This document shows, in pieces, positions 1 to 39,469 of a stretch of DNA of 40,865 bases. A program made the position numbers and the translations under genes. The notes below the pieces were generated by a model. That model searched no databases and was not told where the DNA came from. It saw only the letters and a list, made by a program, of their open reading frames with translations. Numbering within the stretch: position 1 is the first letter of the stretch; each line of letters opens with the position of its first letter. The DNA is from an uncultured Pelagibacteraceae bacterium (lineage in GTDB: Bacteria > Pseudomonadota > Alphaproteobacteria > Pelagibacterales > AG-422-B15), in assembly GCA_902570675.1 (NCBI GenBank), contig CACFYZ010000011.1:1-40865 (forward strand), read 5' to 3'.

Positions 1-1128
1 GTATATATATGGATCAGTGGCTTCTTCACTTTGTTCCTCAAGATTTGACTCCTCTACTGAAGCTTGAATAGCACTTGGCCTAGCTGGCTCAGAATTAGCC
101 ATAGGTGCCACTGCAGAATTTTTCGTAACTTGTAAATCAACAATAGATTTGGTTGGTCTTGGATTAGAGTCAAGTCCAGTAGCAACTACTGAAACTCTAG
201 CTTTCCCCTCCAAATTCTCATCAAAGATTGAGCCTACAATTACATCAGCATCAGGATGAACTTGTTCTCTGATCTCATTCGTAATTTTATCAACTTCATG
301 CAGAGTGAGATCCGTTCCTCCTGTAATATTGATTAAGAGACCTTTAGCCCCATCTAATGAGTAGTCGTCTAATAGTGGATTAGTAACTGCATTGTGGGCA
401 CATTCAATTGCTCTATTTTCACCTGAAGCTTCACCTGTTCCCATCATTGCGCGACCCATATTATTCATAATAGTTTTTACGTCTGCAAAATCTAAATTGA
501 TTAAACCAGGCACAACCATTAAATCTGTAACACTTCTAACTCCTGCGTGTAGTACATCATCGGCCATCGAGAAAGCATCAGCAAAAGTTGTTTTTTCATC
601 TGCTACTTTAAATAAATTTTGGTTTGGAATAACAATCGTGGTGTCAACCAAGTGTTCTAATTCTTTTAAACCTTGCTCTGCAATTCTCATTCTTCCTGCC
701 CCTTCAAATTGAAATGGCTTCGTAACTACTGCAACAGTTAAAATTCCTAATTCTTTAGCGACTCTTGCTATAACAGGAGCTGCTCCCGTTCCAGTACCGC
801 CTCCCATGCCTGCGGTAATGAAGAGCATATTGGTTCCCTCAAGTCGTTCCATTATTTCATGCTTTGTTTCATCTGCAGATGACTTTCCTATGTCTGGATG
901 AGATCCCGCACCAAGTCCCTTTGTGACTTGTACACCTAATTGCATTTTTGAGTCACTCAGTGATTTTGATAAGGCTTGTGCATCAGTATTGGCTGCAACA
1001 AATTCAACTCCTGACAAACCAGATTGTATCATATTATTAATTGCGTTACCGCCTGCACCTCCAACACCAAAAACTGTTATTTTTGGTTTAAGTTCTTTTA
1101 GTTCTGGAACACTTAAATTTAAAACCAT
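1..1128 (-). CDS. ftsZ: Cell division GTPase FtsZ (5' part; runs off the left edge)
   Basis: FtsZ is the tubulin-like GTPase that polymerises at mid-cell and recruits the divisome. The frame reads from ATG at 1128 to base 1 without a stop, 376 codons, so the C-terminal tail is outside the window. The N-terminal Rossmann glycine signature [12 protein letters not shown] and the tubulin T4 loop GGGTGTG are both present, followed by the conserved NFAD-like segment (here NLDFADV) and the T7-loop region. The end seen here (rich in E, S and P) is the start of the variable linker. The start is supported by a strong Shine-Dalgarno, AGGAGGA at 1136-1142, seven bases before the ATG. mraZ lies 25 bases upstream on the same strand, so the two are probably co-transcribed and the MraZ boxes would control both. 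Identity is certain; only the 3' end is missing. Confidence 0.97.
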
Positions 1129-1135
1129 GAAATTA

Positions 1136-1142
1136 TCCTCCT
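1136..1142 (-). promoter_or_regulatory. Strong ribosome binding site of ftsZ
   Basis: The minus strand reads AGGAGGA seven bases ahead of the ftsZ ATG. It is one of the few near-perfect Shine-Dalgarno sequences in the window, where most genes have weak ones or rely on overlap with the gene before. It fixes the ftsZ start and suggests high translation compared with mraZ, which has no visible ribosome binding site. Confidence 0.85.
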
Positions 1143-1153
1143 ATTTTCATTAG

Positions 1154-1606
1154 TTATTCACTTTTCCATTTGAGATTAGCTAAATTATTTTTTAAGTTAT
1201 TTACCTTTTCATTTTTAAAGGACTCATATGAGCTTGGATTCCACATTTGAAATGTTTCACCCATGCCAACAAAAGAAACCTGATCTGCTATACCAGCAAA
1301 TGCTATAAGTTCATTTGGTATAATTACGCGTCCTTCCTGATCAAAATGTATTTGATGACTATCTGCAAATATTGAAGATGAAAACGCACTACGATCATCA
1401 CTAAAAGGTCCAGCTGATTCAATCGCATCACTAATCTTTTGCATTCGATTAGCGGTACATCCTTCAATAGACTCTAATGTTGGGGAAGGATAACAAATCA
1501 TTCCTCTAAGACCATTTTGCTCCAATACATTTCGAAATGTAGAAGGAACAGAAACACGTCCTTTTTTATCAATTCGATTAATATATGTAGATAGAAACAA
1601 AGCCAT
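1154..1606 (-). CDS. mraZ: Transcriptional regulator MraZ
   Basis: MraZ is the AbrB-like regulator that usually heads the division and cell wall (dcw) cluster and represses its own operon. The 150-residue product has the two expected swapped-hairpin repeats, each carrying a DxxGR motif: DKKGRVSVP near residues 13-21 and DQEGRVIIP in the second half. I place the start at the ATG at 1606, where the family's usual N-terminus begins (MALFLSTYINRIDKKGR). An in-frame start 12 codons further upstream would add a hydrophobic stretch not typical of the family. No Shine-Dalgarno is visible. Five TGGG repeats lie upstream at 1655-1699. Downstream comes ftsZ rather than rsmH, which is unusual. The identification is secure from the two motifs and the length. 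Confidence 0.95.
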   Translation of the reverse strand: MALFLSTYINRIDKKGRVSVPSTFRNVLEQNGLRGMICYPSPTLESIEGCTANRMQKISDAIESAGPFSDDRSAFSSSIFADSHQIHFDQEGRVIIPNELIAFAGIADQVSFVGMGETFQMWNPSSYESFKNEKVNNLKNNLANLKWKSE

Positions 1607-1654: not shown

Positions 1655-1699
1655 TGGGTTAAATTGGGATTACGTGGGATATTATGGGATTAAGTGGGA
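1655..1699. promoter_or_regulatory. MraZ-box array: five TGGG direct repeats at 10-bp period
   Basis: On the plus strand TGGG occurs at 1655, 1665, 1675, 1685 and 1695, exactly 10 bases apart; the last four are TGGGAT. MraZ proteins are known to bind short tandem TGGG-type repeats of this spacing upstream of their own gene, usually about three or four copies. The array lies 49 bases upstream of the mraZ ATG, with the TGGG reading on the strand opposite to mraZ. A TATAAT-like hexamer on the minus strand (1728-1733) would put the transcription start upstream of the boxes, so bound MraZ would block elongation or promoter clearance. That promoter is only tentative, as I see no good -35 element. 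Confidence 0.85.
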
Positions 1700-1802
1700 T
1701 TTGTCTACAGCTATTTAATTTTTTTCATTATATATCAATTGCTTAAATAATATATAACATTAGGGTTATTTGTTAACATATTGATATTAAACAAAGATAG
1801 TT

Positions 1803-2161
1803 TGCCAGATAATCTATAAGCCGGGTTCTGTAATTTCTTAAAAAAATCGATAACTATTCATCTAGCTTAATTGTTACCAATTAAGTCTTGCGATCAACCC
1901 AGTTACAGCCAAGATAAAGCTTATGTAACTCTATTTGATCTTGCTCCTGGTGGGGTTTACCATGCCTTTTTTGTTACCAAAAAAGCGGTGAGCTCTTACC
2001 TCACCTTTTCACCCTTACCCTATAAATTTCAATTAGGGCGGTTTATTTTCTGCGGCACTTTCCCTGAGGTTGCCCTCGCCGGCAATTAACCGGCACCATA
2101 ACCTTGTGGAGCCCGGACTTTCCTCTTTTTTAATTAAAAGCAGTTATCCAATTATCTGGCA
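1803..2161 (-). ncRNA. rnpB: RNase P RNA (bacterial type A)
   Basis: This is the catalytic RNA of ribonuclease P, which trims tRNA 5' leaders. On the minus strand the 5' universal segment GAGGAAAGTCCGGGCTC (2108-2124) and the 3' universal segment ACAGAACCCGGCTTAT (1816-1831) are both present, as are the P4-associated sequences and a TAGATGAATAGTTATCGA-like block matching the 3' domain. The ends are set by helix P1: ATTATCTGGCA (2151-2161) is the reverse complement of TGCCAGATAAT (1803-1813). About 359 nucleotides is a plausible length for this RNA. It is transcribed toward mraZ, with no obvious hairpin-and-T-run terminator between them. An open frame on the opposite strand here is a by-product. 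Confidence 0.96.
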
Positions 2162-2166
2162 TTTAG

Positions 2167-2195
2167 GGTTTAGCCTCTAAAGGATTATTGGTCAA
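2167..2195 (-). promoter_or_regulatory. Candidate rnpB promoter
   Basis: The minus strand has TTGACC (2190-2195) and, after a 17-base spacer, TAAACC (2167-2172); the RNA would begin about six bases later, at or near helix P1. The -35 element fits sigma-70 well and the -10 only partly (3 of 6). The -35 hexamer contains the stop codon of ampD (2192-2194), so the promoter sits at the very end of that gene. Confidence 0.5.
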
Positions 2196-2908
2196 GTCTC
2201 TCTTTTAATAGATATTAGATACCTTAAATATCCCAATAATTTACGCTTCACCCTAAATTCATCTAATTCCTCAGGGCAATAGTGGCTTTCAAATGCATAA
2301 ATCACCTGTAGTGTTTCTTTATCCATCAAACTAGATAAAGATATTTTATAACCAAAATTTCGAAGTAATAGTTGTAACAATTTAATCTCTGAATTCTTAA
2401 GTAATGTATTTGAATTATTTTTCTTCGGCAATATCGCTAATCCATTTATTGCAAGCTTATGCCAAGGAAATAAATACCCAGGATCACTTTTACGTAAAGG
2501 AGCTATATCAGAGTGACCAAGAATATTGTATATCTTTATTTTATGTTTAACCTTTAAATTTTTTAACAAAAAAATTAATGCGTTTATTTGAGATTTTTTG
2601 AAGGAGTGGTAGCCGTATTTGCTACCTTTATTTTGTAATTCAATTCCAATTGACTTTGAATTTAAATTTGTATCTTTTTGCCAATATGAAACACCTGCAT
2701 GCCAAGCTATATCTTTATCATTTACGAGCTGTATTATTTTTCCACTTTCATAAATTAAATAATGCGAACTAACTTTATATTTTTTTGATTTTAATCTTTT
2801 GAGGGCCTCTTTGGCAGTTTTCATTCCTGTATAATGAATTATAATATATTTGATATTTCTCTTCCTTACTTCATTGAAATTAGGTGACTTGTTAAATTCA
2901 ATTTTCAT
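2192..2908 (-). CDS. ampD: 1,6-anhydro-N-acetylmuramyl-L-alanine amidase (AmpD type)
   Basis: A zinc amidase of the Amidase_2/PGRP family that cleaves the bond between muramic acid and L-alanine. Without a signal peptide it should act in the cytoplasm on recycled anhydro-muropeptides. The catalytic domain covers residues 1-155: IIIHYTG with zinc ligand H25, SHY and AWHAG (H49, H70), SIGIE with the likely catalytic E90, and GHSDIAPLRKSDPG with H132, K140 and D142. The H/K/D spacing equals that of E. coli AmpD (H154, K162, D164). Residues 175-238 resemble a degenerate peptidoglycan-binding domain. The start overlaps the EamA gene stop by four bases (ATGA), so they are co-translated. Confidence is high for the family; cytoplasmic recycling is inferred from the missing leader. 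Confidence 0.9.
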   Translation of the reverse strand: MKIEFNKSPNFNEVRKRNIKYIIIHYTGMKTAKEALKRLKSKKYKVSSHYLIYESGKIIQLVNDKDIAWHAGVSYWQKDTNLNSKSIGIELQNKGSKYGYHSFKKSQINALIFLLKNLKVKHKIKIYNILGHSDIAPLRKSDPGYLFPWHKLAINGLAILPKKNNSNTLLKNSEIKLLQLLLRNFGYKISLSSLMDKETLQVIYAFESHYCPEELDEFRVKRKLLGYLRYLISIKRET

Positions 2909-3804
2909 GGCGAACTTAATACTTTTTTTTCTTCGGGTTCTCTCATCATTACTATGGCCACTCCAGAAAATGACATTATTGCTCCAATAATTATTTTTAG
3001 TGTAAGGACTTCATTGAATCCCTCATAAAGAGAAAAATAGGAAATAATTAATGCATTAATAATTGCAAGAACTGGGGCTAAAAGGGTTAAGGGAGTGATC
3101 TTTGATAAATCATATTTTGTTATTAAATAATAAAAACCAGCGTGACCAATAGCTGTTGCAGCGAATGCTGTAAATAGAATTGCTCCCCACCCAATCATTG
3201 ATGCATTTAAAATTAATTCTACTTGACTCTCCTCTACTAGAAAGGAAATTGAAGCTAGAAATAAAAAACTTATGAATGCAATCCATGCCTGCAAATCAAA
3301 TACTTTTACATTATTTAGTTTTTTCATAAAAAGTAGACTAATTGCTATTGAAAGGGCTGCTAATAAAGCATAATAAACACCGCCTAAATCTGAAAATATT
3401 GTTGGCTCAAAAATAAGTATTATTACTCCCCCAAATGCAAGCGCTATACCCAGAATACGTCTCCACTTTATCACTTCACCTAAGAAAATAACTGATAATA
3501 TAGTTGCAAACGGGACACCTAATTGAAGCACTACAGCAACCGACGAAATATATTCAGAGTTATCAAGCGCTAAATAGAAGAATGCAAAATGAATGCCTCC
3601 TCCTAGAACTGAAATTATTAGAATATTTATCATCTGGCCATGATGAATTTTTAAAAATGGTATAAGTAAGACTGCAATTATCAAAAACCTCATAGTGGTA
3701 AATAAAAAGGGTGGAAATTCATTAACACCAATTTTTGCTGAAATAAAAGCCAGTCCCCATGCGAGGTTGATCGATATAACTATTAATATGTCTATTGTTC
3801 GCAA
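2905..3804 (-). CDS. EamA-family (DMT) transporter
   Basis: An integral membrane protein of the drug/metabolite transporter superfamily with two EamA repeats and about ten transmembrane segments in 299 residues. The first repeat begins at NLAWGLAFISAKIGV and the second around residue 145; LAAL, GWGAILFTAFAATAIGHAGFY and the closing helix are typical. Members export amino acids, nucleotides or other small metabolites, and the substrate cannot be read from sequence. The start appears to be TTG at 3802-3804, as no ATG is close and the first helix begins at once. It is followed by ampD with a four-base overlap. It is divergent from mlaA across a 92-base gap. Confidence 0.88.
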   Translation of the reverse strand: MRTIDILIVISINLAWGLAFISAKIGVNEFPPFLFTTMRFLIIAVLLIPFLKIHHGQMINILIISVLGGGIHFAFFYLALDNSEYISSVAVVLQLGVPFATILSVIFLGEVIKWRRILGIALAFGGVIILIFEPTIFSDLGGVYYALLAALSIAISLLFMKKLNNVKVFDLQAWIAFISFLFLASISFLVEESQVELILNASMIGWGAILFTAFAATAIGHAGFYYLITKYDLSKITPLTLLAPVLAIINALIISYFSLYEGFNEVLTLKIIIGAIMSFSGVAIVMMREPEEKKVLSSP

Positions 3805-37637: not shown

Positions 37638-39469
37638 TGAACAATATTGAGAATATTAAAAAAATAGTAAACCATTCTCCTTCGTCATCAGGCATTTACA
37701 AGATGCTCAATGAAAAGAAAGAGATTATGTATGTTGGTAAAGCCAAAAATCTTCAAAACAGACTTAAAAGCTATCTAAATACTAATAATCTCTCAAATCG
37801 AATTAGGAGAATGGTAAGTAGAATATCAAATATAGAGGTAATAATAACTGAAACAGAAAAGGAAGCATTATTACTTGAAGCAAATTTAATAAAAAAACTT
37901 AAACCACCATTCAATATTCTTTTGCGAGATGATAAATCATTTCCCTATATATTTATAAATCACGAGCAAGAATTTCCACAAATATCTAAACATAGAGGGA
38001 AACAAAAATATAAAGGAAAATACTTTGGTCCATTCGCAACAATCAATTCTCTGAATTACACGCTTAAAATATTACAGAAAGTTTTTCTATTAAGGTCTTG
38101 CGATGATACTATTTTTCAAAATAGATCTAAACCGTGCCTTCTTTACCAAATTGAGCGATGCAGTGGTCCATGTGTTGATTATACATTAAGTAAAAAAGAG
38201 TATTTACAAAGCGTTAAAAATGCTGAGCACTTTCTTTCAGGTCATCATAGCAATCTACAAGAAGAATTATCTACCAAAATGGAAGAAGAAAGTAATAGTC
38301 TCAATTATGAAAAGGCAGCAAGTTATAGGGATAAAATTGTTGCATTGACTCAAATTCAAAGCCAACAAAACATTAATCTTTATGATATTAAAAATACTGA
38401 TGTTATTTCAATTTCTAGAAAATCAAACAAATCTTGCATTCAAGTATTTATTTACAGGTCAGGACAAAATTGGGGAAATAGATCTTATTTTCCAAAACAT
38501 AGCGATGAAGTTGAAACATTTGAAATTTTAGAACGTTTTATAGTGGATTTCTATACTAGATATTCCCCTCCAAAGAACGTATTGATAAATACACCTATAT
38601 CTAATGCATCTCTTATAGAAAAATCTCTTACTTCAATCTATAATTATAAGACAACATTCCTTGTGCCTAAAAAAGGTAAAAAATTGGATATTGTAAACTA
38701 CGCAAGTAGAAACTCGGAACTATCACTTAAAAATCATATTGCCCGGTCTCACTCTGATAAAGAGAATCTAAGTCAACTATCACAAGTACTTAATACGAGC
38801 AAAAAAATTGAAAGAATAGAAGCATATGATAATAGTCATTTATCAGGTAAAAATGCAGTCGGTGCAATGATTGTTTGCTCTGAAGAAGGTTTTGACAAAA
38901 AGTCTTATAGAAAATTTAATATAGATTCTTCAAAAGTTAAACTTGGCGATGATTACGGAATGATGAGACACGTTCTTGAAAGAAGGTTTTCTAAAGAAGC
39001 TATCAAAAATTCAAAAAAATACCAAAAGCTTCCTGATCTAGTTATTATTGATGGCGGAAAAGGTCATTATGATTTAGCAAAAACAATCTTATTGGAAAGA
39101 GGATTAAAAAATATTGAGCTTTTATCAATATTCAAAGGCGAAGGCAGAAAAGAATCTTTAGATCGAATTATTTATAAGGATAAAAAAAATTCTATAGATA
39201 AGAATAGCCCATCATTTTTCTTTATACAAAGACTCAGAGATGAGTCGCATCGCTATGCTATTGGTGCTCATAAAGCAAAAAGAAAAAAAGAAATGCATAC
39301 GTCTGAGCTTGAACCGATTGAAGGACTTGGAAAAAGTAGACGAAAACTTCTTCTCAACCATTTCGGTTCAGTCAAAAATATTAAAAATGCCTCTGCTCAA
39401 GATATTTTGAAGGTAAAAGGAATAAGCAAATTGCTATCTGAAAAAATATATGATTACTTTAATGATTAA
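37637..39469 (+). CDS. uvrC: Excinuclease ABC subunit UvrC
   Basis: UvrC makes the two incisions around damage recognised by UvrA/UvrB. The 610 residues begin with a GIY-YIG nuclease domain (SSGIYKMLNEKKEIMYVGKAKNLQNRL, Y21 and Y32), followed by the UVR domain that contacts UvrB (NYEKAASYRDKIVAL), the RNase H-like second nuclease (ERIEAYDNSHLSGKNAVGAM; PDLVIIDGGKGHY) and tandem helix-hairpin-helix motifs at the C-terminus (PIEGLGKSRRKLLLNHFGS, then ILKVKGISKLLSEKIYDYF). Length and motif order are standard. TAATG overlaps tie it to folB and to pgsA. Confidence 0.98.
   Translation: MNNIENIKKIVNHSPSSSGIYKMLNEKKEIMYVGKAKNLQNRLKSYLNTNNLSNRIRRMVSRISNIEVIITETEKEALLLEANLIKKLKPPFNILLRDDKSFPYIFINHEQEFPQISKHRGKQKYKGKYFGPFATINSLNYTLKILQKVFLLRSCDDTIFQNRSKPCLLYQIERCSGPCVDYTLSKKEYLQSVKNAEHFLSGHHSNLQEELSTKMEEESNSLNYEKAASYRDKIVALTQIQSQQNINLYDIKNTDVISISRKSNKSCIQVFIYRSGQNWGNRSYFPKHSDEVETFEILERFIVDFYTRYSPPKNVLINTPISNASLIEKSLTSIYNYKTTFLVPKKGKKLDIVNYASRNSELSLKNHIARSHSDKENLSQLSQVLNTSKKIERIEAYDNSHLSGKNAVGAMIVCSEEGFDKKSYRKFNIDSSKVKLGDDYGMMRHVLERRFSKEAIKNSKKYQKLPDLVIIDGGKGHYDLAKTILLERGLKNIELLSIFKGEGRKESLDRIIYKDKKNSIDKNSPSFFFIQRLRDESHRYAIGAHKAKRKKEMHTSELEPIEGLGKSRRKLLLNHFGSVKNIKNASAQDILKVKGISKLLSEKIYDYFND

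Follow-up and report, generated by a model that had tools for sequence, protein, structure and literature searches.

In the SAR11 clade (order Pelagibacterales), we found an alphaproteobacterial dcw cluster, complete in other respects, whose ftsZ has with high probability been relocated from the gap between ftsA and lpxC to a position between mraZ and rsmH, and in which MraZ would repress one long transcript. Few gene orders in bacteria are as conserved as that of the dcw cluster, in which ftsZ normally comes last within the Alphaproteobacteria. The relocation is fixed in SAR11 and in one further order, and makes this a new version of a known gene cluster.

The mraZ-ftsZ locus and the remainder of the dcw cluster

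The window (the whole stretch of DNA analysed, 40,865 nucleotides) is an entire contig, C11 of genome G000, from an assembly of 32 contigs that is 78% complete. Base 1 of the window is the contig end and lies inside ftsZ. The gene order on the minus strand at this end is eamA - ampD-like - rnpB - mraZ - ftsZ, with the following features.

1-1128, minus strand: the 5' 376 codons of ftsZ (TIGR00065, 412 bits), running off the contig end within the C-terminal linker
1129-1153, minus strand: mraZ-ftsZ spacer of 25 bases, with AGGAGG, the ftsZ ribosome-binding site, at 1137-1142
1154-1606, minus strand: mraZ (Pfam MraZ), 150 aa from ATG 1606 (162 aa from TTG 1642)
1655-1698, plus strand, opposite to mraZ: MraZ-box array of five TGGG with a period of 10 (repeats at 1655, 1665, 1675, 1685 and 1695)
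1679-1707, minus strand: putative promoter of the mraZ operon (TAGACA at 1707-1702, 17-nt spacer, TAATAT at 1684-1679)
1801-2159, minus strand: rnpB, RNase P RNA class A (Rfam RF00010, 327.6 bits)
2192-2908, minus strand: ampD-like N-acetylmuramoyl-L-alanine amidase gene (Amidase_2, profile match), kept as a neighbour in relatives
2905-3804, minus strand: EamA-family transporter gene, the next neighbour, conserved within the window's family

An earlier note on this DNA had described mraZ and ftsZ as separated by 25 bases, with rnpB and ampD on the other side of mraZ. Both statements held: the two genes share a strand, with the mraZ end at 1154 and the ftsZ start at 1128, and rnpB and the AmpD-like amidase gene occupy the far side. 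The product of mraZ matched Pfam PF02381 (E = 9e-17; 61.2 bits vs a cut-off of 23), and has two D-x-x-x-R motifs, DKKGR and DQEGR. It scored below the NCBIfam equivalog cut-off (154.6 vs 162); this cut-off (TIGR00242) was missed by every genome in our order and class surveys, and not by the window's MraZ alone. Judging from the sequence, translation of mraZ may start at TTG 1642 instead of ATG 1606, adding 12 residues. A conserved GAGGT(AA) motif is located 5' of this TTG, and 13 relatives all keep the same in-frame distance of 36 nt between TTG and ATG. For FtsZ, both the GTPase and the C-terminal domains were matched (PF00091 and PF12327). MraZ and FtsZ are thus both ordinary representatives of their families.

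The earlier note had also taken the rest of the dcw cluster to be absent. This was not borne out: contig C11 ends inside ftsZ, and the other dcw genes are found on contigs C19 and C4 of the same genome and 3' of ftsZ in relatives. Contig C19 begins with the C-terminal part of FtsZ that the window lacks, followed by rsmH-ftsL-ftsI-murE-murF-mraY-murD. Just 5' of rsmH on this contig are codons for ...DLFSEPNIHQ...DLLEIPSFLRRQNK. This stretch can be aligned to the C-terminal end of FtsZ in relatives, picks up past the point at which the window breaks off, and includes the conserved C-terminal peptide of FtsZ, DLLEIPSFLRRQ. Contig C4 begins in murD and continues ftsW-murG-murC-murB-ddl-ftsQ-ftsA-lpxC, with lpxC directly after ftsA. 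The dcw genes of this genome are spread over three contigs, with ends falling in ftsZ and murD, and C11 and C19 are placed next to each other by homology, with a gap of unknown length in the sequence between them. Mapping the genes, as the earlier note had proposed, therefore placed rsmH, ftsI and murE on C19 and ftsQ and ftsA on C4, in a cluster that is complete for these genes, with ftsZ second, and not missing. The cluster had looked absent because the contig ends within the repetitive FtsZ linker.

Two candidate explanations were rejected. Loss of the dcw cluster is contradicted by the remaining genes on C19 and C4. A duplicate ftsZ at the old site was sought in the window's genome and no second ftsZ was found, there being a single copy overall and none between ftsA and lpxC, which are directly joined on C4.

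The gene ftsI on C19 is in two overlapping frames (L002:4213-5992; frames 5992-4961 and 5004-4213), where relatives have one ORF of ~592 aa. This split is probably a sequencing or assembly frameshift.

The cluster can be read without interruption in a genome of the same genus (L091), as ampD-mraZ-ftsZ-rsmH-ftsL-ftsI-murE-murF-mraY-murD-ftsW-murG-murC-murB-ddl-ftsQ-ftsA-lpxC (names by NCBIfam), and the closed genomes of the order's other family have the identical order. In L091 and in these closed genomes the 16 dcw genes are contiguous on one strand, and in every relative where the region is readable ftsZ is followed by rsmH and the downstream dcw genes. The distal end after ftsQ-ftsA is occupied by lpxC, with ftsZ in second position.

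There were several local irregularities among the relatives. In some genomes of the second SAR11 family murE and murF form a single reading frame of 918-955 aa (L080:11276-14119, L082, L083, L084, L086, L089); they are separate in others of that family and in the window's family. In SAG-MED32, copies of ampD and eamA seem to be inverted past mraY, at the distal end of contig C19 (L028:9231-10597), and this is possibly a chimeric single-cell contig. An inverted segment interrupts murE near a contig end in AG-422-N09 (L023:15210-16138), likely a chimera of single-cell amplification.

Spread and origin of the rearranged order

The earlier note had proposed a survey of gene order in related genomes, and this survey showed that the adjacency is fixed. 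Both mraZ and ftsZ are present in 110 of 118 Pelagibacterales genomes and are adjacent in all 110. In one other order (f9, which includes G141), they are likewise adjacent in every genome that has both, 21 of 21. In G141, rnpB and ampD are still upstream of mraZ, and the cluster likewise ends ftsA-lpxC; the rearranged gene run is unbroken in this order too. We also surveyed the class with one genome per family, which gave 96 genomes with both genes. The two genes are in the canonical arrangement in 74 of these, on one strand and 11-30 kb apart (median 16.5 kb), far apart in 2 and on different contigs in 17. Only 3 have them adjacent, and these are two Pelagibacterales and G141.

The canonical cluster (mraZ...ftsA-ftsZ in E. 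coli, and its form in canonical Alphaproteobacteria) has the same genes in otherwise the same order and on the same strand, with mraZ as the leading gene, preceded by TGGG boxes, with ftsQ-ftsA distal and, in the alphaproteobacterial form, lpxC next. It differs in that ftsZ, here between mraZ and rsmH, lies between ftsA and lpxC in the alphaproteobacterial form. A canonical-order alphaproteobacterium (L045) has ampD-rnpB-mraZ-rsmH, and ftsZ therefore appears to have been inserted into that ancestral context. In P. ubique HTCC1062, mraZ is located beside the RNase P RNA, for which the intergenic region 38796-39447 is given (PMC2704228, table); the mraZ boundary at 38795 in G041 abuts this region. 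A literature search on SAR11 together with dcw, mraZ or ftsZ found no discussion of the relocation of ftsZ, with genomes public for years.

A tree of FtsZ alone joined the two Pelagibacterales families (SH-aLRT 97) and left the second order on a long branch of unresolved position. We therefore built a tree from 13 concatenated dcw proteins. In this tree all rearranged lineages (f1, f2 and f9) formed one clade with an SH-aLRT of 99, a value from a homogeneous model applied to sequences of uneven composition, for which AT-rich composition bias is a real caveat. The sister to this clade was G173, which has the canonical order with ftsA-ftsZ-lpxC intact. This topology fits one ancestral relocation. 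It seems most likely from these sequences that ftsZ moved once, in the common ancestor of the Pelagibacterales and the one other order, and one event is the simpler interpretation. Two separate events, with the Pelagibacterales and the other order each relocating ftsZ, would be in keeping with the very divergent FtsZ of the latter and its unresolved position in the FtsZ tree. We consider this unlikely, given that the concatenated tree unites the two orders and that both retain ampD-rnpB-mraZ upstream.

The putative MraZ operator and the control of ftsZ

There were five TGGG repeats with a 10-base period upstream of mraZ (1655-1698), giving three overlapping triple matches where 0.03 would be expected. 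The array is kept upstream of mraZ in relatives, with five boxes in the window's genus and 2-4 in other lineages. Interleaved with the five boxes is the TAGACA-17-TAATAT pair, a putative promoter, and its TAGACA is unchanged across all 13 aligned relatives. No other box array was found elsewhere in the window or on the stretches of C4 examined, and C19 had one box pair, at chance level. The box strand was considered as a peculiarity of the clade and rejected: arrays of 2-5 boxes on the opposite strand are common 5' of mraZ across the Alphaproteobacteria read, so this orientation is not special to SAR11. The MraZ operator of E. coli, as read from its sequence, also has TGGG repeats with a 10-base period directly 5' of mraZ, but it has three repeats on the coding strand, in contrast to five on the opposite strand in the window's genus.

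In the window's family (f1), the GGAG core of the ftsZ ribosome-binding site and a spacer of 24-25 bases are present in all relatives. The end of ftsZ overlaps the start of rsmH by 4 bp (ATGA) in every readable case of this family, and in the other lineages examined the rsmH start codon is within ~30 bases of ftsZ. Because of the overlap, the most likely reading is that a MraZ-controlled operon yields FtsZ as its second product, and that FtsZ does not have a switch of its own. The earlier note had read the locus as a minimal switch by which MraZ sets the dose of FtsZ rather than of the whole cell-wall operon. The adjacency is indeed unusual, and extends through the order. The restriction to FtsZ is not supported, since rsmH and the full dcw cluster directly follow ftsZ, and a MraZ-controlled transcript would therefore carry ftsZ plus the cell-wall genes.

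MraZ is a repressor of dcw genes in Mycoplasma genitalium, where its loss raises FtsZ about 25-fold (PMC8475190); work cited in that paper attributes repression of the dcw operon in E. coli to MraZ. The M. genitalium cluster, mraZ-mraW-MG_223-ftsZ, resembles that of SAR11 in having MraZ boxes and an operon led by mraZ that includes ftsZ, but it is reduced to four genes with ftsZ last, whereas the SAR11 cluster is complete with ftsZ second (PMC8475190). By analogy with E. coli and Mycoplasma, MraZ would bind the TGGG boxes that overlap the promoter, occlude it, and so repress one long transcript, within the full order rnpB - [MraZ boxes/promoter] - mraZ - ftsZ - rsmH - ftsL - ftsI - murE - murF - mraY - murD - ftsW - murG - murC - murB - ddl - ftsQ - ftsA - lpxC. 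The promoter-proximal ftsZ would be translated from a strong ribosome-binding site, and the ATGA overlap would couple translation of rsmH to that of ftsZ. With ftsZ second in one such transcript, MraZ would set FtsZ together with the cell-wall genes, and these would rise and fall together. The unusual point is the position of ftsZ, close to the promoter and away from ftsQA. Additional promoters within mraZ or ftsZ may also contribute, as may transcription continuing from rnpB.

A different possibility is that ftsZ reached its second position by duplication or transfer and is no longer under MraZ, with ftsZ and the downstream genes driven separately by an internal promoter close to the end of mraZ. 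E. coli ftsZ has several promoters within upstream genes, and there is a 9/12 promoter-like match inside mraZ at 1212-1184. We consider escape from MraZ quite improbable, however: promoter-like sites in this AT-rich stretch are near chance (8 found vs 5.3 expected), and the sole box array and the sole invariant -35-like element are upstream of mraZ.

It is very improbable that mraZ and ftsZ form a stand-alone two-gene division switch, with the other dcw genes lost or elsewhere and MraZ setting the dose of FtsZ alone. The adjacency, the MraZ-box array and the lack of genes after ftsZ in the window would agree with such a switch, but the window stops at a contig edge, all downstream dcw genes follow ftsZ in readable relatives (with the 4-bp overlap in the window's family), and the FtsZ tail is joined to rsmH on C19 of the same genome.

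The contig break within ftsZ and the meaning of the relocation

The genome is in 32 contigs and 78% complete, and many contigs of the clade end inside ftsZ, but a chimeric mraZ-ftsZ join from assembly or binning, which the earlier note had named as a way the adjacency could fail, can practically be dismissed because the identical junction recurs in independent assemblies, with 24-25 base spacing in relatives of the window's family and in 110 of 110 genomes of the order, including the closed isolate genomes G040 and G041.

The window ends at ftsZ base 1128. Among 44 named mraZ contigs, 14 end inside ftsZ, and for 10 of these the end falls within ftsZ bases 1124-1171. In the window's genus the C-terminal linker of FtsZ is acidic (~30% D/E) with in-frame tandem repeats, EPEMIAEPEVEPEPIEEP...; related genera have repeats of the EEARLAAEA type. 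This variable-number acidic tandem repeat was noted in the window and in L004, L028, L037, L042 and L043. In L004 the linker (L004:11666-11995) has two 117-base copies with a 92% match. Among the named relatives the complete FtsZ protein is 487 to 606 aa long, and L027 and L028, whose FtsZ core DNA is 99.2% identical, differ by 26 aa in total length. The break in ftsZ is a recurrent assembly limit, found again in relatives because the linker holds this acidic repeat. Contig-end trimming, as practised by single-cell pipelines, may account for a break just ahead of the repeat. Breaks at the linker repeat make the dcw cluster look truncated in SAR11 draft genomes.

The relocation of ftsZ provides a gene-order character for the disputed relatives of SAR11. 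As a single fixed change common to all SAR11 surveyed, it is also a natural experiment on whether ftsZ needs complex internal promoters of the E. coli type. We suggest, tentatively and as less probable than its opposite, that in SAR11 the move beside mraZ took ftsZ away from the usual ftsQA-proximal promoters and left the MraZ operator as the main transcriptional control of FtsZ. If this is true, FtsZ would be produced earliest and in the largest amount from the dcw transcript, and the relocation would have rewired division control, in a form since fixed, in the streamlined ancestor of the most common bacteria in the ocean.
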